Assembly (NCBI GenBank): GCA_902534325.1
Contig: CACAPQ010000021.1
Span: forward strand, 1 to 35,166
DNA from: Paracoccaceae bacterium
GTDB taxonomy: Bacteria > Pseudomonadota > Alphaproteobacteria > Rhodobacterales > Rhodobacteraceae
DNA length: 35,166 nucleotides
Reading direction: 5' to 3'
The stretch's first letter is position 1. Each line of letters begins with the position of its first letter. Both the position numbers and the translations under genes were made by a program. This document shows positions 1,153 through 33,419 of this stretch, piece by piece. Below the pieces are notes generated by a model. That model was not told the DNA's origin, made no database searches, and worked only from the letters and a program-made list of their open reading frames with translations.

Positions 1153-1153
1153 A

Positions 1154-2912: not shown

Positions 2913-2921
2913 AGGTGAAAA

Positions 2922-3812: not shown

Positions 3813-3821
3813 GAGATCAAT

Positions 3822-6677: not shown

Positions 6678-7869
6678 AACTTGGCGATGGTTTGGACCAG
6701 AAGATAAGGTCACTTTAAGCGATATTAAGCAAACTGGTGCCTCTGGTATAGTTACCTCACTTTATCATTTGGAACCGGGAATGGTTTGGAAGAAAGAAGA
6801 AATTTCTTCGAGGTTGGCTGAAATCTCTGGATCAAAGAGTCACCCTACCAATTTATCATGGCAAGTAGTTGAAAGCTTACCGGTCAGTGAAACTATAAAA
6901 ACTGGCGCTCACCCTCGAGACGAGCACATAAAAGCATGGATTGAGTCGATGGAAAACTTATCAGAACTCGGCATAAAAGTGATTTGTTATAACTTCATGC
7001 CAATTCTTGATTGGACTCGTACCGAGTTGGCTGCTCCAATGTCTAGTGGAGCTACTGCTATGTATTTCGACTTGTTAGATTTCATTGCTTTTGATTGTTT
7101 CATTTTGGAGCGGATGAACGCTCAAAATGACTACGAAAAAAAATTAGTGGACGAGGCAAAACATCGTTTTGAAAGGTTTTCAAAAGAAAAAAAATTAACT
7201 CTTAATAAAAACATAACAGCTGGTTTGCCTGGTGCTAGCGAGAAATTAACTTTTCAAGAAGTAAAAAGAAGGCTTGAAAGTTATTCTGGAATTGATGCCC
7301 ATAAGCTAAGAGAAAATTTTAAATATTTTTTGGATGCTGTCGTACCAACTGCTGAAAAAATGGGAGTGCGTCTATGTTGTCACCCTGACGATCCTCCGTG
7401 GCCTCTGCTTGGGTTACCCCGTATTATGTCTACAGAAGAAGACTACAATTGGTTAGTAAATATTTATCCAAGTAAGGCTAATGGCATAACTCTTTGTACT
7501 GGCTCGTTGGGAGCCAGTTTTGAGAATGATCTACCTGGAATGGTTTCCCGACTGGGAAAGCATATTCATTTCCTTCATCTGAGGAATGTAACTAGAGAAC
7601 AAGAAAGTATACCAACTAGTTTCTTCGAAGACGAGCATTTATCAGGAAATACAGATATGATTGAGACTATCTCTGAAATTATTCGAGAAGAAAATCGTCG
7701 CAAGGCTGAAGGACGGGAAGATTGGTCTATTCCCATGCGACCTGATCACGGTCAGAATATCCTTGATGATCATGGACGCAATGCAATGCCAGGATATCCT
7801 GCTATTGGTCGATTAAAGGGCCTGGCTGAGTTGCGGGGAGTTTTCAAAGCTCTTGAACGCAAAATTTAA
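6670..7869 (+). CDS. uxuA: Mannonate dehydratase
   Basis: This protein matches UxuA, which dehydrates D-mannonate to 2-keto-3-deoxy-gluconate using a metal ion (EC 4.2.1.8). It has 399 residues, close to the ~394 of the E. coli enzyme. Family hallmarks are ETWRWFGPEDKV at the N-terminus, the TGASGIVTSLYH stretch, YNFMPILDWTRT, and the metal site around LCCHPDDPPWPLLGLPRI, then CTGSLGA and the C-terminal IPMRPDHGQ. The ATG at 6670 lies within the previous stop region (ATGATTGA). An earlier in-frame ATG at 6634 would add 12 residues unlike the family. No uxuB (fructuronate reductase) or KDG kinase is next to it, although the SDR could serve as the reductase. UxuA paralogs also act on other aldonates, so mannonate as the true substrate is likely but not proven. 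Confidence 0.93.
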   Translation: MIETWRWFGPEDKVTLSDIKQTGASGIVTSLYHLEPGMVWKKEEISSRLAEISGSKSHPTNLSWQVVESLPVSETIKTGAHPRDEHIKAWIESMENLSELGIKVICYNFMPILDWTRTELAAPMSSGATAMYFDLLDFIAFDCFILERMNAQNDYEKKLVDEAKHRFERFSKEKKLTLNKNITAGLPGASEKLTFQEVKRRLESYSGIDAHKLRENFKYFLDAVVPTAEKMGVRLCCHPDDPPWPLLGLPRIMSTEEDYNWLVNIYPSKANGITLCTGSLGASFENDLPGMVSRLGKHIHFLHLRNVTREQESIPTSFFEDEHLSGNTDMIETISEIIREENRRKAEGREDWSIPMRPDHGQNILDDHGRNAMPGYPAIGRLKGLAELRGVFKALERKI

Positions 7870-7883
7870 ACTGAGGAATAAGA

Positions 7884-8693
7884 ATGTCCAGATTATTGAT
7901 AAAGCCTGACAGTAAACTAGGAAAAATTCATGATATTTCTCCCGAAAAGGCTGGATGGGATTATGTAGGTTTCGATTTGTATTTATTGGAAGAAGGCCAG
8001 TCGATAAGACAAGAAACTTTTGATAGAGAGGTCATCTTGGTTTTGGTGGAAGGGCACGCAGAAATCATAGCAGACGGTAAAAAGTTTGGAGTGCTTGGCG
8101 ATCGTTTGGATGTGTTTGAAAAGTCTCCACCGCATTGCGTTTATGTTTCCAGTGAAACTAATTGGTATGTCGATCCCACTACTAAGTGTACTCTTGCGAT
8201 TTGTTCAGCACCTTGTTCGAAAAAATACGAAGCTACGCAGATCGGCCCTACAGGAATTGAGCTAACAGCTCGCGGAAAGGGAACTAACACCAGGTACATA
8301 AACAATATTGCGATGGAGGACCGAGATGTTGCAAGCAGCTTGCTAGTGACTGAGGTGTTTACGCCGTCGGGTCATTGGTCATCTTATCCTCCACATCGAC
8401 ATGATGAGGATGATTTCCCAAATATGACTTATCTTGAAGAGACATATTATCACCGTTTAAATCCATCAAAAGGCTATGGGCATCAGAGGGTTTTCACTGA
8501 AGATGGCTCTCTTGATGAGACAATGACCGTAGAAAATCACGATGTTGTATTGGTTCCAAAGGGGCATCATCCATGTGCTGTGCCTTATGGGTATGAGATG
8601 TACTACTTAAATGTGATGGCTGGCCCATTAAGGAAATGGCGATTTAAAAATCATCCAGATCATAATTGGATCGCTGAAAAAGATACTTCTTAG
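7884..8693 (+). CDS. iolB: 5-deoxy-glucuronate isomerase-like cupin
   Basis: The 269-residue protein resembles IolB, the bicupin isomerase that turns 5-deoxy-D-glucuronate into 5-dehydro-2-deoxy-D-gluconate in myo-inositol breakdown (B. subtilis IolB has 271 residues). The second cupin has the metal-binding HRHDEDD (after SYPP) and a Glu-Glu-Thr-Tyr-Tyr segment. The C-terminus has VLVPKGHHPCAVPYGYEMYYLNVMAGP, followed by the characteristic RKWRFKNHPDHNWI. It starts with an ATG after GAGGAATAAGA, 14 bases downstream of uxuA. IolC, IolD, IolE, IolJ and IolA are not in the window. It may therefore act on another deoxy-uronate made by the upstream enzymes, or supply the missing step for a distant iol locus. 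The family call is secure. Confidence 0.9.
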   Translation: MSRLLIKPDSKLGKIHDISPEKAGWDYVGFDLYLLEEGQSIRQETFDREVILVLVEGHAEIIADGKKFGVLGDRLDVFEKSPPHCVYVSSETNWYVDPTTKCTLAICSAPCSKKYEATQIGPTGIELTARGKGTNTRYINNIAMEDRDVASSLLVTEVFTPSGHWSSYPPHRHDEDDFPNMTYLEETYYHRLNPSKGYGHQRVFTEDGSLDETMTVENHDVVLVPKGHHPCAVPYGYEMYYLNVMAGPLRKWRFKNHPDHNWIAEKDTS

Positions 8694-9656: not shown

Positions 9657-9740
9657 TGGTGGGCGACCCTGGAATCGAACCAGGCGTGCGTCTCCGCGAG
9701 GGAGTTACAGTCCCCTGCCACACCTTGCGGCCTGTCGCCC
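9657..9740 (-). tRNA. tRNA-Tyr (GTA)
   Basis: The minus strand folds into a class II tRNA. The acceptor stem GGGCGAC (from 9740) pairs with GTCGCCC, the discriminator is A, and CCA is encoded at 9657-9659. The anticodon loop in GGGGACTGTAACTCCC carries GTA. A long variable arm (CTCGCGGAGACGC region) and a GGTTCGATTCC T-arm are present. The long variable arm with GTA fits bacterial tRNA-Tyr. It is transcribed away from the rRNA methyltransferase gene. Confidence 0.95.
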
Positions 9741-13052: not shown

Positions 13053-13212
13053 GGAGCGGGACCGCAACTGCCGTTAGGTTTTCTCATTCCCGAGGACCTG
13101 TATATACAGGTGGGCACCAGGTAACCAGGCCAGGGCCAGGACAGAGCCAGTTCCCTCGGAATTGCTTAAGGCCACCGGAATGCAACCATTACGAACAGAG
13201 CAGAACCCGCAC
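13053..13212 (-). ncRNA. ssrS: 6S-like structured small RNA
   Basis: The stretch between nusB and mmcB is much richer in G and C than its surroundings and folds into one long rod. Pairings I can trace: GCGGG 13056-13060 with CCCGC 13206-13210; CGT 13072-13074 with ACG 13191-13193; GGTT 13077-13080 with AACC 13184-13187; CATTCC 13085-13090 with GGAATG 13177-13182; CGAGG 13091-13095 with CCTCG 13154-13158; and an apical hairpin from the palindrome ACCTGTATATACAGGT 13096-13111. A large one-sided bubble (13159-13176, containing CTTAAGG) lies mid-rod. A ~160-nt near-continuous hairpin with a big central bubble is the architecture of 6S RNA, which mimics an open promoter and sequesters sigma70 RNA polymerase. 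The minus strand is chosen because a good promoter lies just beyond the right end. 6S identity is inferred from shape, not homology. Confidence 0.58.
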
Positions 13213-20610: not shown

Positions 20611-21825
20611 ATGGAAGAGAGATTAAAGGAACTAATTTCTAATTACCAAGTGTCCCATAGTCTCCCTCGCCAATTTTATACGTCTGAGACTTTATATCAG
20701 ATGGATATCGAGCACTATTGGAACCACAGTTGGATTTGGGTCGGACATATAAACCAAATTCCCAATGTTGGAGATTTTTTCTTATTCGATTACGGTTACG
20801 AGTCCGTAATAGTGGCTCGTGATAAAAATAAAGATGTAAATGCTTTATTGAATGTATGTCGGCATAGAGGTTCAAGAGTTTGTTTAGAAAAGAGTGGTAA
20901 TACTCGTGTATTTGCATGCCCCTATCATGCATGGACTTATGAACTAAATGGAAATCTTCGTGGTGCGCGTGAAATGGGAGACAGCTTTGATAAAGCTGAA
21001 CATTCACTAAAAAAAGTTAATCTTCGAATTTTCCACGGCCTAATTTTTGTCTGTATATCAGACGATCCACCCAATATTGATGCAGGTTTACTTCAACTAG
21101 GAACATTGGTTGAACCTTTTGAATTTGAGAATTTAAAAGTTGTGCATAGCGAAAATTATCCAGTAGCTGCTAATTGGAAATTGGCTTTGGAGAATTATAT
21201 GGAGTGCTATCATTGTGCGCCCGCACATTTAGAGTATTCTAGGTCGCACAGCTTAAAAGATCCATCAAGCGCCAATATCGAATTGAAAAGTTGTATGCTT
21301 AAGAAAAGTATAGAAGTAGGGCTATCGGGCGATGAGCTTCAAATAAATAGTCTTGGGTCAAAAGATGTAGAAATGGATTTTTATTTCTCCCGTTATCCCC
21401 TTTTTCAAGGCTATCAAACTGGCAGTAAGTCTGGAAAAAAATTAGCGCCACTATTAGGTAAACTTAAAGATTTTGATGGTGGTACGACTGATCTACAAAT
21501 TGGTATTTTGAATAACTTTTTATCTTATTCAGATCATTTAATAGGCTATCGCTTTATACCAAGATCTCTTCAGCTTACGGATATTGAGGTAATCTGGATG
21601 GTGAGAGAGGATGCCCAAGAGGGCCTAGATTATAATTTAGAAGATCTCACATGGTTATGGCATTGTACATCACAAGATGATGAACGCATTATTGGACTCA
21701 ATCAAAAAGGGGTCAATTCCGATCACTACGTTCCAGGGCCTTTATCTAACATGGAGTGGGGCATTAAAGCGTTTCATGCTGGTTACCTGAAACAATTGGG
21801 AAAAAATATTAATATTAAATCTTAG
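20611..21825 (+). CDS. Rieske non-heme iron oxygenase, alpha subunit (CntA/GbcA-like type), copy 1
   Basis: A 404-residue ring-hydroxylating-type oxygenase subunit. The Rieske [2Fe-2S] centre is Cys83-x-His85, then Cys103-x2-His106 (VCRHRGSRV, ACPYHAWTY). The mononuclear iron site is ENYMECYHCAPAH with His201 and His206. The residue that bridges the two centres is Glu198 where aromatic dioxygenases have Asp. Glu here, and the ECYHC-x3-H pattern, are typical of the carnitine monooxygenase CntA, glycine-betaine GbcA and related quaternary-amine oxygenases, which demethylate or split C-N bonds. The acidic third ligand is probably in QDDERIIGLNQKG. No reductase partner (FAD/ferredoxin) is adjacent. 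It is convergent with an amine oxidase gene, which supports an amine substrate. Confidence 0.9.
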   Translation: MEERLKELISNYQVSHSLPRQFYTSETLYQMDIEHYWNHSWIWVGHINQIPNVGDFFLFDYGYESVIVARDKNKDVNALLNVCRHRGSRVCLEKSGNTRVFACPYHAWTYELNGNLRGAREMGDSFDKAEHSLKKVNLRIFHGLIFVCISDDPPNIDAGLLQLGTLVEPFEFENLKVVHSENYPVAANWKLALENYMECYHCAPAHLEYSRSHSLKDPSSANIELKSCMLKKSIEVGLSGDELQINSLGSKDVEMDFYFSRYPLFQGYQTGSKSGKKLAPLLGKLKDFDGGTTDLQIGILNNFLSYSDHLIGYRFIPRSLQLTDIEVIWMVREDAQEGLDYNLEDLTWLWHCTSQDDERIIGLNQKGVNSDHYVPGPLSNMEWGIKAFHAGYLKQLGKNINIKS

Positions 21826-21886
21826 AGTTTTTTATTTGGTAAAGATGTGAAGAAAATTTCTAGAATTTAACTTTTAATTAAAGAAA

Positions 21887-23161
21887 CTAATTTTTAAGTT
21901 TGATGATATTGAATAATCTAATAGCCGCCATTTTGCCACTCTCATATGCCCCATTGACCAGACCTGCTAATTCACCTGCTGTTGCCTCACCTGCAAATAT
22001 TAACTTTTCTGCAACAGGTTCACTTAGCAACTCTCGTGCGCCGTAACAGCCTGGTTTAACTGCAGAATAAGACCCTTTAGTAAGTGGGTTATTTGCCCAA
22101 TCGGGCGCAAAGCCTTTTAGAAAATGCTTACGGATATTGCATCCATACAAGTACTCGAGTTTAGAGAGGGCGTATTCAACAATTTCGTCTCCGCCTTGCA
22201 TAGATAAGTTCCAGGCAAACTGCCCACCGATAAACCCAACTATATAATCGTGTCCAGTTGGCCATGCTAAGAAATAGCAGCCACTTCCAATATTTTCTGG
22301 CGCAATGTCATATTGCAAGAAACTATTTTCAGTAAATCCTAATCTACTTCCGTCGAACAGAAGAGGAATTTTTACAAGGAGCCCCATTTGAATACCATCA
22401 AGTGCCTTTTGCGTTTTATTGGGAAGTTTGGGTGTAAACTTTATTTTTTCGGACTTTAAAACACCAATTGAAACAGTGCAAATGCAAGCCTTAGCTAAAA
22501 TTGTTCCATTGGACGTAATAACTTTTACGCCTGAACCTGAATAATCTATATTAAGTACACTTGTGTTGAAAGCGATAGGAAAGTTGTTGTTTAGTGTAGC
22601 TACTAAACTACCTAAACCCTCTTTTACAATAAAACTTGGTTGGGTATCTTTTGTATTCCAATATTCTGCTGTCGATATTTGATTTACATCAACAGCGAAA
22701 TTTAACGCTCCCTCCCAATTCTGGAAACATTCACCATATGGAACTTTGGGAATTATTCTTGATGCTGGGATATCGATCCCTCGGCGGCCGGTGTCTCGAA
22801 GAATTTCTTTTATTTTAAATTCAGATTCTTTGTATTCTTTTGCTGCTTCTTTTGGAGATTTTGTACCGTCTCTCTCGAACATTTCGATTTTTGGGTTAGA
22901 GTGGTCTACGAGTGTAAAGTTATTATTTTTACCCAAGTCTGAGAATATGTTATCGTCCGAGCCTGATATCCAAGAACAACCATGATCAACAGGTTGGCCA
23001 AGAGTATTACTCTCCGTGTAAGCCCGACCACCGATGCGACCTGAAGCCTCTAAGACTACATACGAGGTTCCTAGTTCCTGAAGCTTTTTTGCTGCTGAAA
23101 GACCTGATGAACCAGCACCAATTATAACAATATCCGGGTTAGTTGGAAGAGGTGCACTCAA
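21887..23161 (-). CDS. Flavin-containing amine oxidase (MAO/polyamine oxidase family)
   Basis: The 424-residue protein begins with IVIIGAGSSGLSAAKKL (GxGxxG dinucleotide fold for FAD), followed by VLEASGRIGGRAYTES, the conserved ExxxRxGGR flavin motif of amine oxidases. The C-terminal FAD-binding segment is LIFAGEATAGELAGLVNGAYESGKMAA, matching the family's GE.t....G.v.GA..SG. The middle part has the substrate-domain motif CICTVSIGVLKS. Such enzymes oxidise primary or secondary amines, including polyamines, to aldehydes and release H2O2. There is no signal peptide, so it acts in the cytosol. It lies between a Rieske oxygenase and a Pot-type binding protein. The exact amine is unknown. Confidence 0.91.
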   Translation of the reverse strand: MSAPLPTNPDIVIIGAGSSGLSAAKKLQELGTSYVVLEASGRIGGRAYTESNTLGQPVDHGCSWISGSDDNIFSDLGKNNNFTLVDHSNPKIEMFERDGTKSPKEAAKEYKESEFKIKEILRDTGRRGIDIPASRIIPKVPYGECFQNWEGALNFAVDVNQISTAEYWNTKDTQPSFIVKEGLGSLVATLNNNFPIAFNTSVLNIDYSGSGVKVITSNGTILAKACICTVSIGVLKSEKIKFTPKLPNKTQKALDGIQMGLLVKIPLLFDGSRLGFTENSFLQYDIAPENIGSGCYFLAWPTGHDYIVGFIGGQFAWNLSMQGGDEIVEYALSKLEYLYGCNIRKHFLKGFAPDWANNPLTKGSYSAVKPGCYGARELLSEPVAEKLIFAGEATAGELAGLVNGAYESGKMAAIRLFNIIKLKN

Positions 23162-23369
23162 GGGCTTTATCTACTTCTATCTTTTGAATTTCGAAAGATG
23201 CTACAGTGCAGTTTCGTACTATGCAACCTGCTGAAGTCAGTGAAAATTTTAAAAATTGAACCATAAAGAATGTGTTTCTAAATTTAGGCCTTCCTATTTT
23301 TCTAGACTCAGTACAAATTAAAGTATTGTATGAAGCTTAGACTATGAACTTAAAAAGGAATTGGGAAAA

Positions 23370-24422
23370 ATGAGAAAAACTTTAAGTTACCTGGTGGCTG
23401 CAACTGCATTTTCATTCGGTGCTCCTGCATTCGCAGCAGACAGTGAACTGGTAGTGTTCGACTGGGGTGGATATGAAGACGAAATGTTCTTCCAAGATTA
23501 TATGAAAAAATACGGCGATGCGCCGACTTATTCTTTCTTTTCAGATGAGGAAGAAGCTTTTCAAAAAGTGCGCGCAGGGTTTAGGGCTGACTTGGGACAT
23601 CCCTGTTCTCAATCAGTCGTAAAATGGCGAAACGCAGGAATTATAAAACCAATTGATACTTCTAGACTGTCAAACTTTGACAAGGTTGATCCTGGATTTG
23701 CTGGAATGGAGGGCTTTCAAGTTGACGGTGTTCAATGGGCGCTTCCGATAGATTGGGGCGCAACAGCATTAACATATAATGCTGAAGAAGTATCCGCAGA
23801 AGAAGCCAGCTCTTTGTACGTTTTTGCTGATCCAAAATTTCAAGGGCGCGTATCAATTATTGACAACGTAGACGACGCCTATGCCCTAGGTTATCTGGCA
23901 GTAGGAGTGATGGATTGGACAAAATCTACGGACGAAGATTTTAAAAAGGCTTCAGATTTTTTAAGAAAAGTGCACAAAAACGTTCGACAATATCATGCTG
24001 ACGGTGCTGAAGGTGCCGCGCTTATGAAGAGTGGAGAAATTCTTTTAGAATGGACGTGGAATGAGGTTGCATTTACTCTAAGTTGGGAAGATGACGCACC
24101 AGAGACTGTCTTCAAACGAGACACCAAAGAAGGCTCTTCAACTTGGGTATGTGGCTATACAATGATGAAAGATGCACCTGGCTCGGAACAAAAAGCCTAC
24201 GATTTTCTTGATGCTTGGCTTTCTGACGCGTCTGCAGAATATATCGTTACTGAGTGGGGTTATGGACATACGAATAAAGAAGTTATGGCAACTGTTGGTA
24301 AAGAGAATGGATGGGAGCCATTAGCAAGTTATACTGAGGGTTCTTTATTCCAAAAACCTTCTGATCCTGCACTCAGGGAAAGAATGATTAAAGAATGGGA
24401 GCTCATTAAAAGTGGCTTCTAA
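23370..24422 (+). CDS. ABC transporter periplasmic binding protein, PotD/PotF-like
   Basis: A 350-residue periplasmic solute-binding protein. The ATG at 23370 follows AAAAAGGAA; an in-frame TTG at 23361 would add three residues. The signal peptide MRKTLSYLVAATAFSFGAPAFA is cut before ADSE. The mature start ELVVFDWGGYEDEMFF is the strand and loop of the spermidine/putrescine (PotD) class, with Trp and Asp lining the amine pocket. WALPIDWGATALTYN and STWVCGYTMMKDAP match later ligand loops. It should bind a cationic amine or quaternary compound outside the inner membrane for the convergent PotBCA-like transporter. Unusually, it is transcribed separately and toward its transporter genes, with a terminator between. 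Confidence 0.92.
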   Translation: MRKTLSYLVAATAFSFGAPAFAADSELVVFDWGGYEDEMFFQDYMKKYGDAPTYSFFSDEEEAFQKVRAGFRADLGHPCSQSVVKWRNAGIIKPIDTSRLSNFDKVDPGFAGMEGFQVDGVQWALPIDWGATALTYNAEEVSAEEASSLYVFADPKFQGRVSIIDNVDDAYALGYLAVGVMDWTKSTDEDFKKASDFLRKVHKNVRQYHADGAEGAALMKSGEILLEWTWNEVAFTLSWEDDAPETVFKRDTKEGSSTWVCGYTMMKDAPGSEQKAYDFLDAWLSDASAEYIVTEWGYGHTNKEVMATVGKENGWEPLASYTEGSLFQKPSDPALRERMIKEWELIKSGF

Positions 24423-24434
24423 TCAAGGCTAAAT

Positions 24435-24464
24435 AAAAAACCTCAGAGGCGAATTTCGCCTCTG
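24435..24464 (-). terminator. Intrinsic terminator of the PotBCA-like operon
   Basis: CAGAGGCG (24444-24451) pairs with CGCCTCTG (24457-24464) around a five-base loop. On the minus strand the hairpin is followed by GAGG and a run of six T (24440-24435). It starts four bases after the ATPase stop and separates it from the convergent binding-protein gene. There is no T run in the plus direction. Confidence 0.85.
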
Positions 24465-24467
24465 AAA

Positions 24468-25544
24468 TCAAGTTGAAAAAGCTATTATATTATCCAAATC
24501 AGCCCTTAACTGGATTTCTTCACCAACGGAATAACTAAGCTGTCCAACAGAATTTTGCGATGAGATCGTCAAAGTTTCAATAGTATCGCATGAGACCTTA
24601 TAGTTAGTTGTTTCTCCGAAATATGATACATCAATTATTTTTCCAGAAACTAAATTTTTTGATCGAGAAGTTTTTGGGACTATAGCTATTTTCTCAGGCC
24701 GTATTCCAAGGACTACACTTTTAGATGATTGGCCAAACACTCGAGATTTATCTATAGTTATTTGTCCAAAAATTTCAGACTGAACCTTTAAATTTTTGTT
24801 TTCATCTATAATTTCACCATCAATAAAAGTCATTTCTCCTATGAAAGATGCAACTTTTTGTGAATTTGGAAGTTCGTAAAGATCTCTGGGTGATGCTTCT
24901 TGCGCGACCTTGCCATCGAACATAACGGCTACTCTGTCACTCATTGTAAGCGCTTCGTGTTGATCATGGGTTACAAGTATAAAAGTAATCCCTACGGCTC
25001 TCTGTAGGTGTCTCAGTTCTGATTGCATTTGCTCTCTAAGCTTCTTATCTAAAGCTGAGAGTGGCTCGTCTAATAAAAGAACTTTTGGTTTCAATATTAG
25101 TGCACGCGCTAGAGCGACACGCTGCTTTTGACCTCCAGAAAGGGCATTCGCAGAACGTTTATTGAGACCGGATAATCCTACTAGTTCAAGTGCTTCATCA
25201 ACTAGTTTGTTTTGTTTGGTCCTATTTTCACGTTTGTTTCGCAGTCCGTAGGCCACATTTTCTTCTACATTTAAATGCGGAAAAATAGCGTAATTTTGGA
25301 AAACCATATTTGTCGGTCGTAAATTAGGCTCAATGCCTTCCATCGAGGTATTATCAATAAAGACTTGGCCAGAAGTTGGTTTTTCGAAGCCAGCAATTAG
25401 TCTTAATAGCGTAGTTTTACCGCAGCCAGAAGGACCTAAAAGTGAATAGAACTGGCCTTCCTCGATGTCTAAAGAAACCCCGTTCACAGCATTAATCTCA
25501 CCAAAGCTTTTAAAGACATTTTTCACCTGAACTAACTTACCCAT
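24468..25544 (-). CDS. ABC transporter ATP-binding protein, PotA-like
   Basis: The 358-residue protein is the ATPase of a polyamine-type importer. Walker A is LLGPSGCGKTTLLRL, then the Q-loop MVFQNYAIFPHL, the signature LSGGQKQRVALARAL, Walker B VLLLDEPLSALD, and the H-loop LVTHDQHEAL. A C-terminal TOBE region (about 245-355, with VVLGIRPEKIAI) is typical of PotA, FbpC and MalK types. It energises transport through the two permeases encoded upstream. Its ATG follows AGGGAA, 22 bases after the permease stop. It is the last gene of the operon and is followed by the terminator. Confidence 0.94.
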   Translation of the reverse strand: MGKLVQVKNVFKSFGEINAVNGVSLDIEEGQFYSLLGPSGCGKTTLLRLIAGFEKPTSGQVFIDNTSMEGIEPNLRPTNMVFQNYAIFPHLNVEENVAYGLRNKRENRTKQNKLVDEALELVGLSGLNKRSANALSGGQKQRVALARALILKPKVLLLDEPLSALDKKLREQMQSELRHLQRAVGITFILVTHDQHEALTMSDRVAVMFDGKVAQEASPRDLYELPNSQKVASFIGEMTFIDGEIIDENKNLKVQSEIFGQITIDKSRVFGQSSKSVVLGIRPEKIAIVPKTSRSKNLVSGKIIDVSYFGETTNYKVSCDTIETLTISSQNSVGQLSYSVGEEIQLRADLDNIIAFST

Positions 25545-25566
25545 CGTTTAAAAATTCCCTTAAATT

Positions 25567-26364
25567 TTATAATACAGACGTTTGCGTTTTTGCTGCTCTT
25601 CTTCGAAAATACTCACTAAGAGATAGCAAAATTAATGAAACTAAGATTAGAATTGTACCTAATGCCATAGTTGTCGGTAATTGTTTTGGAAATCTAAACA
25701 ATGACCATATGTAAACTGGTAATGTTGTCTCTGTTCCAGTTAAGAAAAATGCTATTATAAATTCGTCCAAAGACAATGTAAAACCAAGTAATAAACTAGC
25801 CATTATACCAGGATATACCAGCGGTAGGATCACGCGGCGAAAGGTCCCAATTGGCGTCTCGCCAAGATCGAGTGATGCTTCTTCTAAACTTATGTCAAGA
25901 TTATTAAAGGCAGAATTCATGATGAGTATTGAGAACGGCATAATCAGCAGAGTATGGCCTAAAACGACGCTCCATAAATTAAGTGGTAATCCGAGCTGAA
26001 TTAGTACAATCAAAAGTGATACACCAACTATTATCTCAGGCAAAACTAGTGGTGCCAGAATGAAGGTAAGTGAGAATTGTTTGCCACGAAAATTGTACCT
26101 ACTTGACGAGCGGGAAGCTAATGTCCCCAATATCGTAGCAAAAATACTTGAAGACGCAGCCACAATAAGTGAATTTTTTAGGGCTTCATGTAAAGTCTCT
26201 TGATACAGTAAGGCTTTGAACCAACCGGTGGTAAAACCCGATAATGGAAAAGCAATAATTTGGCTTGAATTAAATGAAAATATTGGAAGCAGTAATGCTG
26301 GCGCATACAAAAATATTAAATATGTAACCGCAAAGACTTTAAGGAACTTACCAGGGCGAACCAT
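25567..26364 (-). CDS. ABC transporter permease, PotC-like
   Basis: A 265-residue inner-membrane permease with about six hydrophobic helices, the first being VFAVTYLIFLYAPALLLPIFSF. The EAA loop that contacts the ATPase is visible: EEASLDLGETPIGTFRRVILPLVYPGI. Order and size match PotC of spermidine/putrescine transporters. The start ATG is one base after the stop of the first permease, and an AAGGAGATA site lies inside that gene's end, so the two subunits are made in equal amounts. The substrate is probably the ligand of the nearby binding protein. Confidence 0.92.
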   Translation of the reverse strand: MVRPGKFLKVFAVTYLIFLYAPALLLPIFSFNSSQIIAFPLSGFTTGWFKALLYQETLHEALKNSLIVAASSSIFATILGTLASRSSSRYNFRGKQFSLTFILAPLVLPEIIVGVSLLIVLIQLGLPLNLWSVVLGHTLLIMPFSILIMNSAFNNLDISLEEASLDLGETPIGTFRRVILPLVYPGIMASLLLGFTLSLDEFIIAFFLTGTETTLPVYIWSLFRFPKQLPTTMALGTILILVSLILLSLSEYFRRRAAKTQTSVL

Positions 26365-26365
26365 C

Positions 26366-27172
26366 TTAGTATCTCCTTAGGTATTTTTTGTTGATGAGAA
26401 CAAAAACAATTGAGATAAATGCTACAATTATCAATGAGGAAACAGATAAAGCTGCAGCGAGAGGGGCATTATTTGCTTTTGAGAATTGAACTTGAATCAT
26501 ATTTGCGATCATTAGGCCATCAGTACCTCCAACTAATTTTGGTGTGATGTAATCCCCGACTGTAGGGATAAAAATTATTAGGGCGGCACCAACCACACCT
26601 GGCATTGATAACGGCAGAATTACCCTGAAAAATTGCTTAATTGGACCATCCCCTAGATCTCTACTTGCTTCGAGTAAAGATCTATCAATTTTTTCTAGGG
26701 AAACAAAAATTGGTAAAATAGCAAAAGGTGCCCAACCATGTGTAAGAGCAATGATCACGGCATTAGAATTATATAAGATAAAAGTAAGAGGTTCACTTAT
26801 CATTTCCAACCACATCAGAAATGAATTTAGAACACCGTTATATCCCAGAATGACCTTCCATAAAAACATTCTAAGGAGGTAGCTTGTCCAAAATGGTATC
26901 GTAATCAAAAATAACCAAAGCGCTTTTCTATTACCGCCATAAAAAGAGATAAAATAGGCCATTGGGTAGGCCAGCAAAACAGTAAAAAAAGTTACCGTAA
27001 GGGAAATGTAAAGAGATCTCGAAAACAGTAATTGGTACACAGGCTGTGTAAAGGCTTCAATGTAGTTATTTAAAGTAAATGTTTTGTCTAAAATTAAATA
27101 ATCTTGTGTCCAAAAGCTCAATAGGAACATCATTGTCAGTGGAGCTGCCAATAAAATGATGCTGAACGCCAA
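26366..27172 (-). CDS. ABC transporter permease, PotB-like (N-terminus uncertain)
   Basis: This permease has 268 residues from the TTG at 27172. About six membrane helices are seen, with the EAA loop LEASRDLGDGPIKQFFRVILPLSMPGV. It is the first gene of the PotB-PotC-PotA-like operon. The TTG has no ribosome site and would begin directly in the first helix. The frame stays open for 20 more codons upstream, encoding a Lys-rich tail (KLKDETKKGWK) expected before TM1 on the cytoplasmic side. The only start-like codon there is an ATT at 27232, preceded six bases away by GGGGA. The true protein may therefore have 288 residues and use a rare ATT start. Confidence 0.9.
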   Translation of the reverse strand: MAFSIILLAAPLTMMFLLSFWTQDYLILDKTFTLNNYIEAFTQPVYQLLFSRSLYISLTVTFFTVLLAYPMAYFISFYGGNRKALWLFLITIPFWTSYLLRMFLWKVILGYNGVLNSFLMWLEMISEPLTFILYNSNAVIIALTHGWAPFAILPIFVSLEKIDRSLLEASRDLGDGPIKQFFRVILPLSMPGVVGAALIIFIPTVGDYITPKLVGGTDGLMIANMIQVQFSKANNAPLAAALSVSSLIIVAFISIVFVLINKKYLRRY

Positions 27173-27564
27173 TGGAGTAGATAGAAGTTTCCAGCCTTTT
27201 TTTGTTTCGTCTTTAAGTTTTAAGCTAAAAATTTTTTATCCCCGTTTTAATTATCAAGTAACGTACTCAATTACTGTTCATATTATTTGTCACTAAAAAG
27301 CCATAATGCTTAACGGCTTTGGTTCGTCAAGAAAAATAGCGATAATTTGGTGCCGGAGTGTTTCCTAAAGAAATACAAGCATCATGTTGTTACGAAAAAA
27401 TCTACGTACTTTCTATAAAAAGTTTCAAGAATGGGAACTCAAGTTTGTCCAAAAGTAAATAATTCCAATTATTACAATAAAATAATAATCAATTTTTTGA
27501 CTCACCATTTTGTAATGTTAAGATGTGCTGAGAAATAATTCTTCAAATGTAGGTACCGTAGTAC
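27173..27564. other. Divergent control region between the PotBCA-like operon and the FAD/GcvT trio
   Basis: These 392 bases contain no gene I can support. They are very AT-rich on the right half, with several A/T runs (AATAATAATCAATTTTTT). They separate two operons transcribed outward, so they should hold both promoters and any shared regulator site. The leftmost 60 bases may be the coding start of the permease if the ATT codon is used. Confidence 0.6.
27497..27524 (+). promoter_or_regulatory. Putative promoter of the FAD oxidoreductase/GcvT-like operon
   Basis: TTGACT (27497-27502) is followed after 16 bases by TAAGAT (27519-27524), about 40 bases before the GTG start at 27565. Confidence 0.45.
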
Positions 27565-29187
27565 GTGGAAAAAAACTTTGATGTTATAGTGATCGGTTCT
27601 GGTCATAATGGTTTGGTCAATGCCTGCTATCTTCAAAAAGCAGGGTTAAACGTTCTTGTTCTCGAAAAAAATGACTGGATAGGAGGTGCTGCGGTTAGTC
27701 GCGAACTTCATCCTGGAATTTTATATTCAAACTGTTCATATGTTTGCAGTCTTTTTAGACCTGAAATCATGAGAGATTTGGAGCTGCCAAAACATGGTCT
27801 GCAGATTGTTGCTATAGAGGGCGGTACGGTATTCACCAGAGATGGCGATTATCTTGCATCTTTCAGAAACTACCATGCAAAAAAGCGAGAGTTAGAACGG
27901 TTTAGTGTAAAAGACAGTGAATCTTATTCAAGGTACTCTAGAGATATTCTAAAGCAGTGCAGATTTATTCAGCCACTTCTTATGAGAACCGCACCAGATC
28001 CAGCGAGCTTTAAATTTAGAGATCTCTCAGAAATGCTTTACCTGTTGCGTAAAGTAAATGACTTAACTGCTAGTGAATTGGCTGATACTATTCGTTTCTG
28101 GACTATGTCAATTTCAGACTTTTTAGATGAATATTTTGAAAATGACGTGATAAAGGCTTCTCTTGCAGTGTCCGGTATCATCGGAACAGCTTTGGGGCCA
28201 ATGTCACCAGGTACCGCCTACGTCCTATTGCATCACTACATGGGCGAAGTTGATGGTTCGATCGGGGCGTGGGGCTATGCCCGCGGAGGAATGGGAGCTA
28301 TTTCTAAGGCTCTGACCTCGTCCTTTAGAGCAATGGGTGGAACATTGCTCAACAATTCTGAGGTAGAGAAAGTCGATATTAGAGGTGCTCGAGTTAGAGG
28401 TGTCATATTAAAAAATGGAGACGAGTATTTGGCGAAAAATGTTGTTTCAAATGCTGACGTAAAGCGTACATTTTTAAAATTGACTGATCCCGAACATCTG
28501 CCACCAAACTTTATAAAAAAAGTGAATAATTTTAAGATACGTGGTTCATCAGGAAAGGTTAATATCGCTCTTGATAGTATGCCAAAATTTCCAGGTGTTT
28601 CAGATACTAATCCATGTTTAAAAGGTGATATTCATTTCACAGATAGTATTGAGAGGATGGAGAGAGCTTACGATGATTGGAAAATGGGAACATGGTCTCG
28701 GGATCCATTTTTAGACATGATGATACCTACTTTAACAGATCCTACCATGGCTCCTCCTGGAAAGCATTTCATGAGTTGCTTTGTTCAATATTGCCCTCCA
28801 AAAGTGGGCGGCAAAAATTGGACTAAAGAGAATAAGGACGCATTTGGAGAGACCGTGATCCAACAGATTGCAGATTATTCGCCGGGGTTCAAAGATAAAA
28901 TTTTACATATGGAGGTGAGAACTCCCAAAGAGCTTGAAGAAGAGGTTGGTTTGACGGAGGGGAACATTTTTCAGGGCGAATTAACTTTCGACCAACTTTT
29001 GTTTAACAGACCAATACCCGGTTACGCTCAATATAGAAGTCCCATTAAAGGTCTATATATGTGTGGTTCATCTACGCACCCAGGCGGTGGCGTCATGGGC
29101 GCTCCTGGCCGGAATGCGGCCGTTGAAATACTCAAGGATCTTAATTTGTCTGGCTCCGATATTAGGGACGCTTATGAAGTCTTATGA
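27565..29187 (+). CDS. FAD-dependent oxidoreductase, PYROXD2-like (copy 1)
   Basis: The 540-residue protein belongs to the phytoene-desaturase-like / PYROXD2 group of FAD oxidoreductases. The N-terminal fold is DVIVIGSGHNGLVNACYL with VLEKNDWIGGAAVSRE next (ExxxxxGG). The family-typical FAD and substrate parts are SNCSYVCSLFRPEIMRDL and, at the C-terminus, GLYMCGSSTHPGGGVMGAPGRNAA. The start is GTG at 27565; no better start precedes the dinucleotide motif. It overlaps the next gene, another member of the same family, by 14 bases. With the GcvT-like protein downstream, it probably oxidises a methylated amine, or a C-N or C-C bond, passing electrons to a quinone or oxygen. No ortholog of known substrate is recognised. 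Confidence 0.9.
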   Translation: MEKNFDVIVIGSGHNGLVNACYLQKAGLNVLVLEKNDWIGGAAVSRELHPGILYSNCSYVCSLFRPEIMRDLELPKHGLQIVAIEGGTVFTRDGDYLASFRNYHAKKRELERFSVKDSESYSRYSRDILKQCRFIQPLLMRTAPDPASFKFRDLSEMLYLLRKVNDLTASELADTIRFWTMSISDFLDEYFENDVIKASLAVSGIIGTALGPMSPGTAYVLLHHYMGEVDGSIGAWGYARGGMGAISKALTSSFRAMGGTLLNNSEVEKVDIRGARVRGVILKNGDEYLAKNVVSNADVKRTFLKLTDPEHLPPNFIKKVNNFKIRGSSGKVNIALDSMPKFPGVSDTNPCLKGDIHFTDSIERMERAYDDWKMGTWSRDPFLDMMIPTLTDPTMAPPGKHFMSCFVQYCPPKVGGKNWTKENKDAFGETVIQQIADYSPGFKDKILHMEVRTPKELEEEVGLTEGNIFQGELTFDQLLFNRPIPGYAQYRSPIKGLYMCGSSTHPGGGVMGAPGRNAAVEILKDLNLSGSDIRDAYEVL

Positions 29188-30736
29188 TGTAATTGTAATA
29201 GGGGCTGGACACAATGGTCTCATCGTAGCTTCAAAGTTGGCAGCTTCTGGAAGGAGAGTACTTTTACTCGAAGCCGGCGAAACCTACGGTGGAATGGCCA
29301 GGAGTGAAGTTTTGTTTGAAGGTTTCCAAGCTCCGGAATTGGCTAGTAATGCAATTGGTATTTCAAAAGATGTAGTGCAAGACTTGGGGCTCAGCAAATA
29401 TGAACTTTTGTTTAATGAAGATGGTTTAAAGACCGTAGGCCTGAGCATAGAAAATGAAAACGTTATATTTGGCAGAAACTTTGGAGAAACTATAGAGGGT
29501 TTAAGAGAGGACGAATTCAAACGATGGAAAGAATTAAGAGAGAAATTTTTTAACCAGAGCCAGCTCTTTCAAAGATTGGCATCGCAAATTCCTGTAGGGC
29601 GTAATTACAAGACATTTGGCAGTAAAGCCAATTTATTTTTGACAGCCGCAAAATTGAGACTGCAAGGTAAAGAACAATTTCAAGAACTTTTACGAATGAT
29701 TACTATGTGCATTGCTGATTTAGTAGAAGAAGAACTTGAAACATCTTCTCTAAAAGGGCTAATTTCTTTTGACTCTACATTAGGTATAAAACTAGGACCT
29801 AGATCGCCAACGTCCTATCTAGGTCTATTATATAAACTTTCACAAATGAAAGCTTCCTATCAAGAGAAATCATTGTCTATTCATGGTGGAGTCACCAGTT
29901 TCATTAATGCTTTGTTTAAGTCAGCTGAGGAAAATGGAGTAGATTTCGTCTTTAAAGGGAAAGTCAGTTCACTTATTATAACGGACTCCGTGGTGACTGG
30001 TGTAAAGCTAGAAAATGGCGTGGAATATTCTGCGAAAACCATTGTATCTTCTATCAGTCCAGTAAGCACTTTTCTTGATTTAGTCGGCCCCCAAAACCTA
30101 GAGACTGATCTAACAAGACGGATCCAAGCTCTGAGGTACTCAGGAAATACCACTAAGCTCAACATCATTTTGGAGGAACTTCCAAAGTTACACAGTTCTC
30201 AAAACTTAGACGCAAACTACCGATACGTTTATGCCCCCTCCTTAGAAATGGTAGAGAGTAACTTTAACTCTCTTAAGTATAATGAACTTCCTTCTGATCC
30301 TAATTTTGAAATGTATTTCAGTAAAATTTCTTCTGGTTCCTCCCTTAATGGAGCAGTTATGGCCTCCATTTGCATTCAGAATACGCCATATTCCGTTAAA
30401 GGTGGCTGGAAAAATTCAAAGGAAGTTTTGATGAATAAGGTAATTTCAACAATTCAAAAATATGCTCCTGAAATTAAAAAGGGTATTTTATTCAAAAGCC
30501 TTCTACTTCCTCATGAAACAGAAAAAAAATACTTCGTTGCTGGGGGTCATTGGCATCATAGTGAATTGCAAATAGATAGTCTTTATTCACTGAGGCCGGC
30601 ATTTGATGTTTCAGATTATTCTACTCCAATTGACGGCCTTTTTATTTGTGGAGCAGGCACCCATCCAGGAGGCAATCTTTTTGGCTTGTCAGGTTTAAAC
30701 GCAGCAAAAAAGATTTTGCAAGAGAGTATTAAATGA
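29174..30736 (+). CDS. FAD-dependent oxidoreductase, PYROXD2-like (copy 2)
   Basis: This 520-residue paralog starts at the ATG at 29174, directly before the FAD motif DVIVIGAGHNGLIVASKL and LLEAGETYGGMARSE. An upstream in-frame start at 29063 would read through the previous gene's end. The family core APELASNAIGISKDVVQDLGL and the C-terminal GLFICGAGTHPGGNLFGLSGLNAA are preserved. It is more divergent than copy 1 in the middle domain, so the two probably bind different substrates or form a heteromer. It overlaps copy 1 by 14 bases and the GcvT-like gene by four. The coupled arrangement suggests a fixed stoichiometry. The specific reaction is unknown. Confidence 0.89.
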   Translation: MKSYDVIVIGAGHNGLIVASKLAASGRRVLLLEAGETYGGMARSEVLFEGFQAPELASNAIGISKDVVQDLGLSKYELLFNEDGLKTVGLSIENENVIFGRNFGETIEGLREDEFKRWKELREKFFNQSQLFQRLASQIPVGRNYKTFGSKANLFLTAAKLRLQGKEQFQELLRMITMCIADLVEEELETSSLKGLISFDSTLGIKLGPRSPTSYLGLLYKLSQMKASYQEKSLSIHGGVTSFINALFKSAEENGVDFVFKGKVSSLIITDSVVTGVKLENGVEYSAKTIVSSISPVSTFLDLVGPQNLETDLTRRIQALRYSGNTTKLNIILEELPKLHSSQNLDANYRYVYAPSLEMVESNFNSLKYNELPSDPNFEMYFSKISSGSSLNGAVMASICIQNTPYSVKGGWKNSKEVLMNKVISTIQKYAPEIKKGILFKSLLLPHETEKKYFVAGGHWHHSELQIDSLYSLRPAFDVSDYSTPIDGLFICGAGTHPGGNLFGLSGLNAAKKILQESIK

Positions 30737-31950
30737 TCCAGTCAAAAGATAGAAAAGACCGGGACACAACATTTAGAGAACCACTTTTTCGGTCTCCTTT
30801 TTACGATTTTTTCGCTGCGAAGGAAAGTGAGGGTCATTGGTATAATTGGAACGGATACAAATCACCAACAATTTTATCAGATGAGGAATTGGAATATTTT
30901 TCTATCCGTTCAACTTGTAGTGTCTTCGATATTACTCCTTTAAACAAATATAGAATTGTAGGGCCACAGGCTGAAGAATTTTTAAATAAGCTCACTGTGA
31001 GAAATGTTACTAAACAGAATGTAGCTACAGTTAAGTACACATTGTGGTGTGATCAGGAGGGGTTTGTAATTGATGATGGCACACTTTTTAGGATTTCGGA
31101 TAATGATTTCCGCTTGTGTTCTCAGGAAAAGCATCTTCCTTGGCTGATTGATACATCATATGGATTTGATGTTGAAATTATCGATGAGACTAAGCACATT
31201 TGTGGAATATCTCTACAGGGGCCTACTGCGGCCTCAATCCTCCGCCAGCTCGGGGTTAACGGAATTGATAATTTGAAACCGTTTCATCTTTTTCAAACAA
31301 AAATATCAAATATGCCAATTATGATTTCTAGAACTGGTTTTACTGGAGACTTGGGTTACGAAATATTTATGAAAAATAATGTGGCAAATAAATTTGTTGA
31401 GAGGGTTTGGAAAGCAGGCTCAAATCATGGGCTTACTGCGATTGGATACAACGCTCTAAATATGGCTAGAATAGAAGCAGGTTTTATAGTGGCTAATATT
31501 GATTTTATTTCATCTGATCATGCAATAAGGCAAAATAGATGTAGACGCCCAGACGATCTCGGTCTTGGATGGTTAGTTGACTTGAACAAAGGATTTTTCA
31601 ATGGAAAGAAGGCAATTTTAAATAGTAAGTTAGAAGACAGTTCAGCTTTCAAGATTTATGCTTTAGAAATAGATGGAAAAGAGCCAGTTGAGGGATCAAT
31701 AATTTATTACAACAAAAAAGATGAGGTTGGCACCGTCACATCAGCTATTTGGTCGCCAATGACTAAAAAATCTATAGCTCTTGCTCAGTTGAAATTGGGC
31801 TCATCAAAGTCAAATATGGAAAACTTATGGATCGAAATATACTCTTTGAAAGAGTTACAATATTATAAACTTATGAAAAAAGTTTCTATAGTAAAGCCAC
31901 CATTTATCAATTTGGCAAGGAGATCTGCTTGCCCACCTGCGAACTATTGA
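30733..31950 (+). CDS. GcvT-like aminomethyltransferase family protein
   Basis: A 405-residue protein of the glycine-cleavage T (GcvT) fold. Family parts are CSVFDITPLNKYRIVGPQAEEFL, VKYTLWCDQEGFVIDDGTLFRI, the substrate/folate stretch ISRTGFTGDLGYEIFM, GYNALNMARIEAG (with the usual LRLExG-type Arg-x-Glu), and the C-terminal barrel with GTVTSAIWSPMTKKSIALA. GcvT-fold proteins take one-carbon units from methylated amines or sulfonium compounds onto tetrahydrofolate; dimethylglycine dehydrogenase C-termini and the DMSP demethylase DmdA belong here. Its ATG overlaps the FAD oxidoreductase stop (ATGA), so it likely receives the C1 unit those enzymes release. The substrate is unresolved. Confidence 0.9.
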   Translation: MIQSKDRKDRDTTFREPLFRSPFYDFFAAKESEGHWYNWNGYKSPTILSDEELEYFSIRSTCSVFDITPLNKYRIVGPQAEEFLNKLTVRNVTKQNVATVKYTLWCDQEGFVIDDGTLFRISDNDFRLCSQEKHLPWLIDTSYGFDVEIIDETKHICGISLQGPTAASILRQLGVNGIDNLKPFHLFQTKISNMPIMISRTGFTGDLGYEIFMKNNVANKFVERVWKAGSNHGLTAIGYNALNMARIEAGFIVANIDFISSDHAIRQNRCRRPDDLGLGWLVDLNKGFFNGKKAILNSKLEDSSAFKIYALEIDGKEPVEGSIIYYNKKDEVGTVTSAIWSPMTKKSIALAQLKLGSSKSNMENLWIEIYSLKELQYYKLMKKVSIVKPPFINLARRSACPPANY

Positions 31951-32110
31951 CCCACGATATATGGGATCCGTTTTCACGGTAGATACTCTCTCGTGTGGAA
32001 CGAATTTAGCAGTTTTTACATTTACTATTTTACGCAAATGAGAGTTGTTAGATTTTAAGATTACGTCTTTTCAACTCATATAGAGTTAATAATGATTTTC
32101 TAATTGATAT

Positions 32111-33307
32111 TTATTCTTTTTTAGCAAGAAGTCTTTCGTTTGCTTGCAGTAGTTTACCTTGCTCTGGTTCTGGGCCCGATAGTACAGGAAAATATTTTCT
32201 TAAAGTATCGTGGTATGCTTTCACCCCATACTCTAAATCAGATAAAAAGACACCTTCGTAAGCGCTGGAGAATGCTGCTTCCCAAGACCATTCGATCAGC
32301 TGTTCGTCTTCTTTACTAGTTAATCGATCAATTCTCATGCTTAGATACCTTGAAATTTTCATCTCCCTATCTTCGTTTGCATATTTGTAATTACCACCGC
32401 GTTGTATGGTTTTTCCATTTTCTACTGGATACTCTTGGTAGAAGATTACTGAATCTGGATATAAGCCAAACACAAGATTTGGAAAAACGCCAATGTATAA
32501 CCAACATCTCTGATGAGCCTCGTCCAAAGTATCTTTGGCACGCAATAATTTTTTATAGTTTCTGACGCTCCACAAGTGTCCATTCCCGGAACTAAATGAT
32601 CCGACAGATCGAGATAGCCCTCCCTCTATTGGCTGATCGTAATAATTTTGACCAAATAGATCATGCAGACCTGGATGTGCCATAGGAACATGATATCCTT
32701 CATTATCAACATCGCGCACACACTTCCAATTTGCATCAATTTTCTCTGTCCAGAAACCATCTCCAGTAGGCTCAAGATCAGAGAGTTCATACTGTGAAAT
32801 TTCGTTATCAAATTTTTTTAGAATATTTGAAAGTGTAGGTTGTGGTCCAGGCTGAAATCTAACAAAAATAAAGCCATTCCATATGTCCATTTCTAAGGGG
32901 GGTAGGCCATATTCAAATGGGTCCAGTTTGGGAAGATATGATGGTTGTGAGGCACCCCTTAAAGTGCCATCAAGATTATAAGTCCAGCCATGAAATGGAC
33001 AAGTTATTGTTGATTTACATGTGCCGGCGTCGCCGGCTATTACCCGCGAACCGCGATGTTTGCACAAATTATGAAATGCTCTGATTTTTCGATCTTTACC
33101 TCTTATAACCAGTGCACGTTCGCCGATTAAATTCCAGGTTATGAAATCTCCTACGTTCGGTATATCGTTGCTATGACAGATAAGCTGCCAGTGGCGTCTA
33201 AAAAGCAAATCTTTTTCAGCTTCAAACATTTCGTCGTTAACAAAGCTCCAGGCGGGAAGGCCTGATCGATCCCAATCATTAGGTATCTCTGTATGTTCTT
33301 TTCCCAA
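32111..33307 (-). CDS. Rieske non-heme iron oxygenase, alpha subunit, copy 2
   Basis: The protein has 398 residues from the TTG at 33307, preferred because AAGGTGG lies five bases upstream. A GTG at 33316 would overlap that site. The Rieske centre is LCKHRGSRV (Cys82, His84) and TCPFHGWTY (Cys103, His106). The iron site is RDVDNEGYHVPMAH with His206 and His211, and Glu203 stands at the bridging position normally held by Asp. The long C-terminal domain and ETIE-free sequence show no reductase fusion. It differs considerably from copy 1 (18 rather than 17 residues between the Rieske pairs), so it likely handles another step or substrate of the same amine pathway. It is convergent with the GcvT-like gene. 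Confidence 0.9.
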   Translation of the reverse strand: MGKEHTEIPNDWDRSGLPAWSFVNDEMFEAEKDLLFRRHWQLICHSNDIPNVGDFITWNLIGERALVIRGKDRKIRAFHNLCKHRGSRVIAGDAGTCKSTITCPFHGWTYNLDGTLRGASQPSYLPKLDPFEYGLPPLEMDIWNGFIFVRFQPGPQPTLSNILKKFDNEISQYELSDLEPTGDGFWTEKIDANWKCVRDVDNEGYHVPMAHPGLHDLFGQNYYDQPIEGGLSRSVGSFSSGNGHLWSVRNYKKLLRAKDTLDEAHQRCWLYIGVFPNLVFGLYPDSVIFYQEYPVENGKTIQRGGNYKYANEDREMKISRYLSMRIDRLTSKEDEQLIEWSWEAAFSSAYEGVFLSDLEYGVKAYHDTLRKYFPVLSGPEPEQGKLLQANERLLAKKE

Positions 33308-33419
33308 TGAAACCACCTTTTAAATAAAAGCATAAACTCTTTGTTATTGTTAGCAATTAAAAAAAGAGATAAAAATATTTTGAATAAAAACCAATGGCTA
33401 TCAGTCTATTAAGATATCG

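Follow-up and report, generated by a model that had tools for sequence, protein, structure and literature searches.

The locus at positions 20611-33307 of contig CACAPQ010000021.1 (GenBank assembly GCA_902534325.1, Paracoccaceae bacterium) is, on a modest balance of the sequence evidence, probably devoted to the catabolism of an N-methylated aliphatic amine and built from two modules; it is considered a strong lead, not a solved pathway. The window, meaning the whole stretch of DNA analyzed (35166 nucleotides), is one whole contig of a 2.09 Mb genome that comprises 74 contigs and is 78% complete; the nearest named relatives of this genome are Rhodobacteraceae metagenome-assembled genomes (MAGs). 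Ten open reading frames fill 20611-33316, and their families were assigned with Pfam and NCBIfam models, with PDB sequences used for the closest solved relatives. The gene content given by the preliminary description of this DNA is borne out by the reading frames and family searches: two Rieske oxygenases (RO1 and RO2), a flavin amine oxidase (AO), a PotD-like binding protein (SBP), a PotBCA-like importer, two flavoproteins (FAD1 and FAD2), and a GcvT-like protein. Module A (RO2, PotBCA, SBP, and a class III aminotransferase) and module B (the FAD1-FAD2-GcvT trio) are also found apart; the single locus first described is not a chance grouping, as much of it recurs in dozens of named genomes, but it splits into these two parts.

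Uptake, stepwise N-demethylation with transfer of the one-carbon (C1) unit to folate, and then deamination remains the best reading of the gene set, from which the reactions, their order, and the substrate are inferred; the recurring neighbors fit this earlier proposal, although the genes do not form one block. A small cationic amine would be imported via the PotD-like SBP and the PotBCA-type permease of module A and oxidized by RO2, and the freed amine would be deaminated by the class III aminotransferase or, in the window species, probably by AO. Module B is predicted to be an oxidative N-demethylase, in which FAD1 and FAD2 would oxidize an N-methyl group and GcvT would transfer the carbon of the resulting iminium to tetrahydrofolate. 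The first methyl on a quaternary nitrogen is most likely removed by RO1 (R-N(CH3)3+ to R-N(CH3)2); RO2, in which a near-invariant Asp replaces the aromatic residue or Asn of the quaternary-amine enzymes, would take tertiary or secondary amines in their protonated form. As a guess, the substrate is either a di- or polyamine bearing methyl groups or a trimethylammonio-alkyl compound, amine or acid, with about 3-5 carbons. Support for this reading comes from the group V motif of RO1, the closeness of GcvT to trimethylamine N-oxide (TMAO) demethylase with its IDD motif, the conserved linkage of the genes, their row on a Fuscovulum plasmid, and module A adjoining an agmatinase and a glutamine-synthetase-like gene in one genome (G048); the catabolic assignment is strengthened because a BetI-like TetR regulator, a class III aminotransferase, and, in G009, G007, and G011, an FMN enzyme recur as neighbors (G and L numbers denote the genomes and loci compared).

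The gene set was followed through 81 genomes, 16 of the same genus and 65 of other genera. FAD1 is matched at E<=1e-60 in 18/81, with 13 matches at >=55% identity, and the latter include 9/16 genomes of the genus (one partial); a strong FAD1 match was found in 12/398 genomes drawn from the phylum (own genome included), all of them from the same class. A scan of species genomes returned at least 462 FAD1 relatives, and the locus counts rest on the best 80 loci, which, apart from the window genus, a SAR116-labeled contig, and a few others, are mostly from Hyphomicrobiales; 57 have full flanks and 76 reach more than 3.5 kb past FAD1. The Hyphomicrobiales proteins (Mesorhizobium, Rhizobium, Shinella, Ensifer, Phyllobacterium) are about 71-74% identical to the FAD1 of the window. 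In 76/76 loci with more than 3.5 kb of flank, FAD1 is followed by a FAD2-type gene and GcvT; the 57 full-flank loci hold an SBP of the same family in 55, PotB/PotC in 54, a class III aminotransferase match in 54, a TetR match in 54, a methyltransferase in 37, and an RO2-type oxygenase in 34. Hyphomicrobiales have much of the set, with the aminotransferase and a BetI-like TetR in addition; 3/3 TetR proteins examined resemble BetI and score below the BetI cut-offs. The Fuscovulum plasmid carries in a row TetR, aminotransferase, FAD1, FAD2, GcvT, two oxygenases, binding protein, and ATP-binding cassette (ABC) genes. A survey of marine Rhodobacterales had been proposed; the set does recur in several genera of that order, but it is not confined to marine bacteria, as it is also found in Hyphomicrobiales (soil). 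The methyltransferase-fold gene (L030:9044-9853, with equivalents in the 37 loci above) stands beside TetR in an otherwise catabolic locus. A FAD1 74% identical to that of the window lies in a MAG labeled Gammaproteobacteria Ww503 (L031), by either gene transfer or wrong binning.

The two modules separate in both directions. RO2 was found in 19/81 genomes; in the 65 genomes of other genera it accompanies FAD1 (>=55% identity) in 4/4 and occurs in 3/61 without it (Fisher p 5e-5, relatedness ignored), the stricter count being 3/4 as one match, in G064, is distant and lacks the motif. Within the genus RO2 is present in 12/16 genomes and FAD1 in 9/16; G006, G010, G011, and G015 have RO2 without a FAD1 match, and G004 (58% complete) has FAD1 without an RO2 match. 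In G010 and G015 the RO2-PotBCA-SBP genes occupy another site (L140, L141), flanked on one side by a conserved aminotransferase cluster and on the other by genes that by eye are msrA/msrB-like; the same site of the window genome (L110) has the same flanks and the aminotransferase cluster only, with no RO2-PotBCA-SBP. Module A is also present in G029 and G048, where the FAD1-like matches are all distant (35% and 31%) and lie at other places. The genes that come after module A in G048 encode an agmatinase (above cut-off), a glutamine-synthetase-like protein, and a flavin oxidase. G019 has RO2 and importer genes, with no SBP-family or aminotransferase match in the stretch examined. Conversely, L014, L115, and L116 hold TetR, FAD1, a second FAD1-like gene, and GcvT, with no RO2-type gene in the stretch examined; an aminotransferase is also present at L014 and L116. 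In G039 the trio and RO2 (with a group V-motif oxygenase) share one contig, RO2 lying about 44 kb from the trio. A description of the locus as one conserved block is ruled out by G011, G010, G015, G029, and G048. At the G048 locus (L142), which belongs to another genus, the permeases are 93% and 85% identical to those of the window and RO2 only 50%, which suggests that parts may have been exchanged between copies of module A.

The genes of the trio overlap: the ATG of FAD2 is located within the last part of FAD1, and GcvT starts in an ATGA that also contains the stop codon of FAD2. FAD1 is the most conserved member in alignments. The two FAD oxidoreductases, called PYROXD2-like in the preliminary description, find their best named models in CrtO/CrtI, with FAD1 at 309.9 bits and FAD2 at 161.8 bits against the CrtO model NF045689, both below its cut-off of 1000. 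A structural model of FAD1 built on a wider alignment has a pLDDT of 86.9 (an earlier model, pLDDT 51.5, was not used), and its nearest folds are carotenoid desaturases, nicotine oxidoreductase, and monoamine oxidase. GcvT passes the cut-off of the folate-binding domain PF01571 and falls short of the glycine-cleavage T model TIGR00528 (136.8 bits, cut-off 235.85); in the PDB it is matched best by TMAO demethylase, in the C-terminal part of that enzyme, and it retains the IDD motif. Outside the main set, FAD1 relatives are paired with GcvT in 5/9 loci (L014, L021, L107, L115, L116), with no such pairing in L020, L022, L108, and L117. One of these, on a Shinella sumterensis plasmid (L107), has a single FAD1-like protein (42% identical) and GcvT amid acyl-CoA dehydrogenase, 3-hydroxyacyl-CoA dehydrogenase, and 3-keto-5-aminohexanoate cleavage genes, surroundings that can be read as resembling carnitine breakdown.

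Passages on CntA in PMC7948474 and PMC10952381 give three marks of quaternary-amine Rieske enzymes: the bridging Glu205, the pair C206-x-x-C209, and a position 203 that is aromatic in clade Va and Asn in clade Vb; the Cys pair is common, not universal, according to the same passages of PMC10952381. Both oxygenases had been described as CntA/GbcA-type with a bridging Glu. The Glu is confirmed by motif in each; the class assignment holds by motif for RO1, the only one of the two that fits the quaternary-amine class. The RO1 motif ENYMECYHC has all three group V marks (bridging Glu, Cys-x-x-Cys, and Tyr at CntA position 203) and is kept in 8/8 RO1 matches (5 distinct). RO1 aligns over nearly its full length with the GbcA model NF058607 at 300.2 bits (cut-off 670), and the solved structures closest to it are 3n0q, 3vca, and 4qup, of which 3vca is the stachydrine demethylase Stc2. 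RO2 fails the group V test, with Asp at position 203, no Tyr, Phe, or Asn there, and no Cys pair (RDVDNEGYHV), though the bridging Glu is present; it scores 121.9 bits against the same GbcA model, likewise under the cut-off. The sequence DVDNEGYHV is kept in 48/49 RO2 matches (44 distinct in all), the exception being only 33% identical; eight further loci have the motif exact in 5, as DNEAYHV in 2, and different in 1. Across nine Rhodobacterales trio loci or genera (the window genus, G033, G039, G046, L030, L097, L104, L105, and L118) an RO2-type gene and a group V-motif oxygenase occur together in 6/9; L030 and L097 have RO2 only, with no group V-motif oxygenase seen at the locus, and L105 has two other oxygenases besides one of group V type, with no RO2 within the stretch examined. 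Among the 57 full-flank loci a group V-type oxygenase match is found in only 2, both of the window genus.

The importer ATPase belongs to the TIGR01187 polyamine-importer subfamily, as it passes the cut-off; SBP reaches 79.4 bits against the PotD model NF007048 (cut-off 582). The PotD-like importer of the preliminary description stands for the overall sequence and not for the ligand positions, which have changed. SBP has W, G, Y, C, Q, N, D, W, W, and C at PotD positions 34, 35, 37, 83, 85, 168, 171, 229, 255, and 257. In 102/102 matches of the SBP family (97 distinct) the PotD residues Trp34, Tyr37, Trp229, and Trp255 are kept, positions 83 and 257 are Cys, 85 is Gln, and 171 is Asp; Asp168 is replaced in 102/102, by Asn in 100. 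Among the module-A-only loci, L137, L139, and L142 have this pattern, and L140 and L141 have it with Pro at 85; two SBPs at L144 that are more distant deviate from it, and a replacement type of SBP found in some genomes keeps Asp257 in 8/8. Asp168 and Asp257 are counted among the acidic ligand residues of PotD; a literature search on the PotD ligand residues found no paper. Because these two acids are lost and the aromatic box is kept, the sequence suggests that the SBP ligand has fewer or blocked amino groups.

All 31 PDB sequences that AO matches at E<=1e-20 are LSD1 or LSD1B. An amine oxidase occurs in 30/57 full-flank loci, with the window type in only 2/30, both of the window genus. Five of six aminotransferases of full-flank loci compared with NCBIfam pass the PRK07036 cut-off. 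The window genome, G014, and G001 have AO at the locus without an aminotransferase, a 58%-identical one lying elsewhere in the genome; in G002 and G012 the aminotransferase adjoins AO, and no RO1 was seen within the stretch examined in G002. G009 and G007 have RO1, an aminotransferase, an FMN enzyme beside these two, and a different PotABCD set, with no AO; the FMN enzyme scores 633 and 603 bits against histamine dehydrogenase and 529 bits against trimethylamine dehydrogenase, and a 48%-identical one occurs together with AO in G011. At least one amine-removing enzyme is present in each of seven genomes (the window genome, G001, G002, G007, G009, G012, G014), which suggests that AO, the aminotransferase, and the FMN enzyme may be alternatives to each other.

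Several observations weigh against a single methylated-amine pathway. As most of the 80 FAD1 loci belong to a single order and are close relatives of one another, the counts lack independence; 23/57 full-flank loci have no RO2-type gene (it may lie beyond the flank in some) and 3/57 no aminotransferase. The RO2 match in G064 (38% identity) is one without the motif, 28/30 amine oxidases are of another type that is 23-27% identical to the AO of the window, with one partial match at 50%, and the Fuscovulum plasmid aminotransferase comes from a different class III subfamily. G011 (95% complete) has the FMN enzyme, RO1, aminotransferase, AO, SBP, importer, and RO2, and no trio; there is a 656-bp gap at the expected site, where tblastn for trio remnants gave chance-level hits only (best E 0.14). 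G010 and G015 carry module A alone. As the modules separate, the trio and the importer need not share one substrate. A Rieske reductase is also unassigned: as the preliminary description stated, none is encoded at the locus, and the only PF00175 reductase-domain protein found in the genome (a 275-amino-acid frame) sits on another contig, and 11/16 genomes of the genus have a PF00175 protein; since the genome is 78% complete, the absence of a dedicated reductase cannot be claimed.

Other explanations were set against these data. The importer, AO, aminotransferase, and RO2 could serve a non-methylated polyamine or guanidino-amine, with the trio oxidizing C-N bonds without demethylation. The PotABCD-type importer and the LSD1-like AO are in keeping with this, as are the agmatinase and glutamine-synthetase-like gene next to module A in G048, a PRK07480-family aminotransferase beside module A in G015 and G010, and a G015 gene that by eye is histone-deacetylase/acetylpolyamine-amidohydrolase-like, with no NCBIfam match. 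It is nevertheless judged unlikely: both PotD acids are lost throughout the SBP family, a GcvT would have little purpose if no C1 unit were released, and BetI-like regulators keep recurring, as do Rieske enzymes of group V type. It is also conceivable that the two modules are mobile catabolic units set side by side by chance, as each occurs apart and the importer has been swapped in G009 and G007; we give this little credence, as the combination recurs in Hyphomicrobiales and several Rhodobacterales genera, and in G039 the trio and RO2 share one contig, though 44 kb apart.

Rearrangement of a known quaternary-amine pathway (carnitine, gamma-butyrobetaine, glycine betaine, choline, proline betaine) would account for the resemblance of RO1, along almost its entire length, to 3vca and the GbcA model, for its CntA-like Tyr, and for the Shinella sumterensis flavoprotein-GcvT pair amid genes read as carnitine-breakdown-like. 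Such an origin is very unlikely in our view, as RO1 stays far under the GbcA cut-off (300 of 670 bits), a CntB/GbcB-type reductase was not located, full glycine betaine demethylation should need no aminotransferase, and the text consulted of PMC12478193 reports the cobalamin-dependent MtgBCD for betaine demethylation in aerobic marine bacteria. The least probable substrate is homarine, trigonelline, or another N-methyl heteroaromatic acid, for which only a very slight chance is allowed; homarine is a ubiquitous marine N-methyl compound, and a conserved bacterial pathway in which Mgd takes part is reported in the part of PMC13390433 consulted, but a class III aminotransferase and a PotD-like protein would not suggest an aromatic acid. 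Catabolism of an N-methylated aliphatic amine is retained as the preferred reading.

A search of full-text literature (homarine, trigonelline, carnitine, gamma-butyrobetaine, trimethyllysine, stachydrine, and the gene combination) found no description of the gene set, with the homarine-pathway genes outside the comparison; the earlier view that the set matches no described pathway agrees with this search, short of proof. A bolder proposition, held tentatively and with somewhat less than even expectation, is that the trio is a new design of folate-coupled N-demethylase independent of dimethylglycine dehydrogenase/sarcosine oxidase (a desaturase/monoamine-oxidase-fold flavoprotein pair with a free GcvT) and RO2 the founder of a new Rieske subfamily in which Asp, in place of an aromatic cage, serves the demethylation of tertiary or secondary amines in protonated form, jointly opening an undescribed pathway of marine and soil Alphaproteobacteria. 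Marine dissolved organic nitrogen contains methylated amines as an important component, according to PMC13390433. The gene set may add a further kind of folate-linked demethylase, and it supplies two marker genes with clear signatures (RDVDNEGYHV in RO2; Cys83, Asn168, and Cys257 in SBP). Natural gene-loss variants within one genus and one testable binding protein could provide a route to the substrate. To our knowledge, many methylated amines have no known breakdown genes.

The features of the locus are collected in the table below. Over the region, terminator-like sites (9 versus 9.7 in shuffles) and promoter-like sites (35 versus 35.7) show no excess, and a search for upstream inverted repeats revealed no obvious operator. 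Elsewhere in the window, a 6S RNA gene lies at 13055-13209 on the minus strand (Rfam RF00013, 51 bits), and a tRNA-Tyr at 9657-9740, also on the minus strand, is called by ARAGORN and not by Rfam at the gathering threshold; upstream, a row of sugar-acid genes at 133-8693 on the plus strand comprises GFO/IDH/MocA oxidoreductases, UxuA mannonate dehydratase, KduI/IolB isomerase, and dehydrogenases.

Table 1. Features of the amine locus, in window coordinates.
Feature	Position	Strand	Basis
RO1, Rieske oxygenase alpha subunit	20611..21825	+	PF00355 and PF00848; motif ENYMECYHC
AO, flavin amine oxidase	21887..23161	-	PF01593, 176.2 bits
SBP, PotD-like binding protein	23361..24422	+	PotD-like overall sequence; PotD-position residues
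Candidate terminator, 14-pair hairpin then T-rich tail	24439..24469	-	directly after importer genes
Importer ATP-binding subunit, PotA subfamily	24468..25544	-	TIGR01187, 359.2 bits, cut-off 355.6
Importer permease, PotC-like	25567..26364	-	profile matches
Importer permease, PotB-like	26366..27172	-	profile matches
FAD1, CrtO/CrtI-like flavoprotein	27565..29187	+	PF01593 and PF01266
FAD2, CrtO/CrtI-like, FAD1 paralogue (28% identical)	29174..30736	+	profile matches
GcvT-like folate-binding protein	30733..31950	+	PF01571, 180.6 bits
RO2, Rieske oxygenase of separate motif type	32111..33316	-	Rieske and Ring_hydroxyl_A; motif RDVDNEGYHV

A member of the histamine/trimethylamine dehydrogenase family is present at the G009, G007, and G011 loci and absent from the window. 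RO1 shares the bridging Glu, the C-x-x-C pair, and the CntA-like Tyr203 with the group V Rieske oxygenases CntA, GbcA, and Stc2, whereas it lies under the GbcA cut-off and RO2 has Asp203 and lacks the Cys pair. The importer resembles PotABCD in that its PotA falls in the polyamine subfamily and SBP retains Trp34, Tyr37, Trp229, and Trp255; it differs in the changes Asp257 to Cys, Ser83 to Cys, and Tyr85 to Gln, in the loss of Asp168, and in missing the PotD equivalog cut-off. The known folate-coupled demethylating enzymes are of the DAO type. Like dimethylglycine oxidase/dehydrogenase, sarcosine oxidase, and TMAO demethylase, the trio pairs an oxidative unit with a folate-binding GcvT that keeps IDD; unlike them, it consists of three separate genes, and its flavoproteins have a carotenoid-desaturase/monoamine-oxidase fold.

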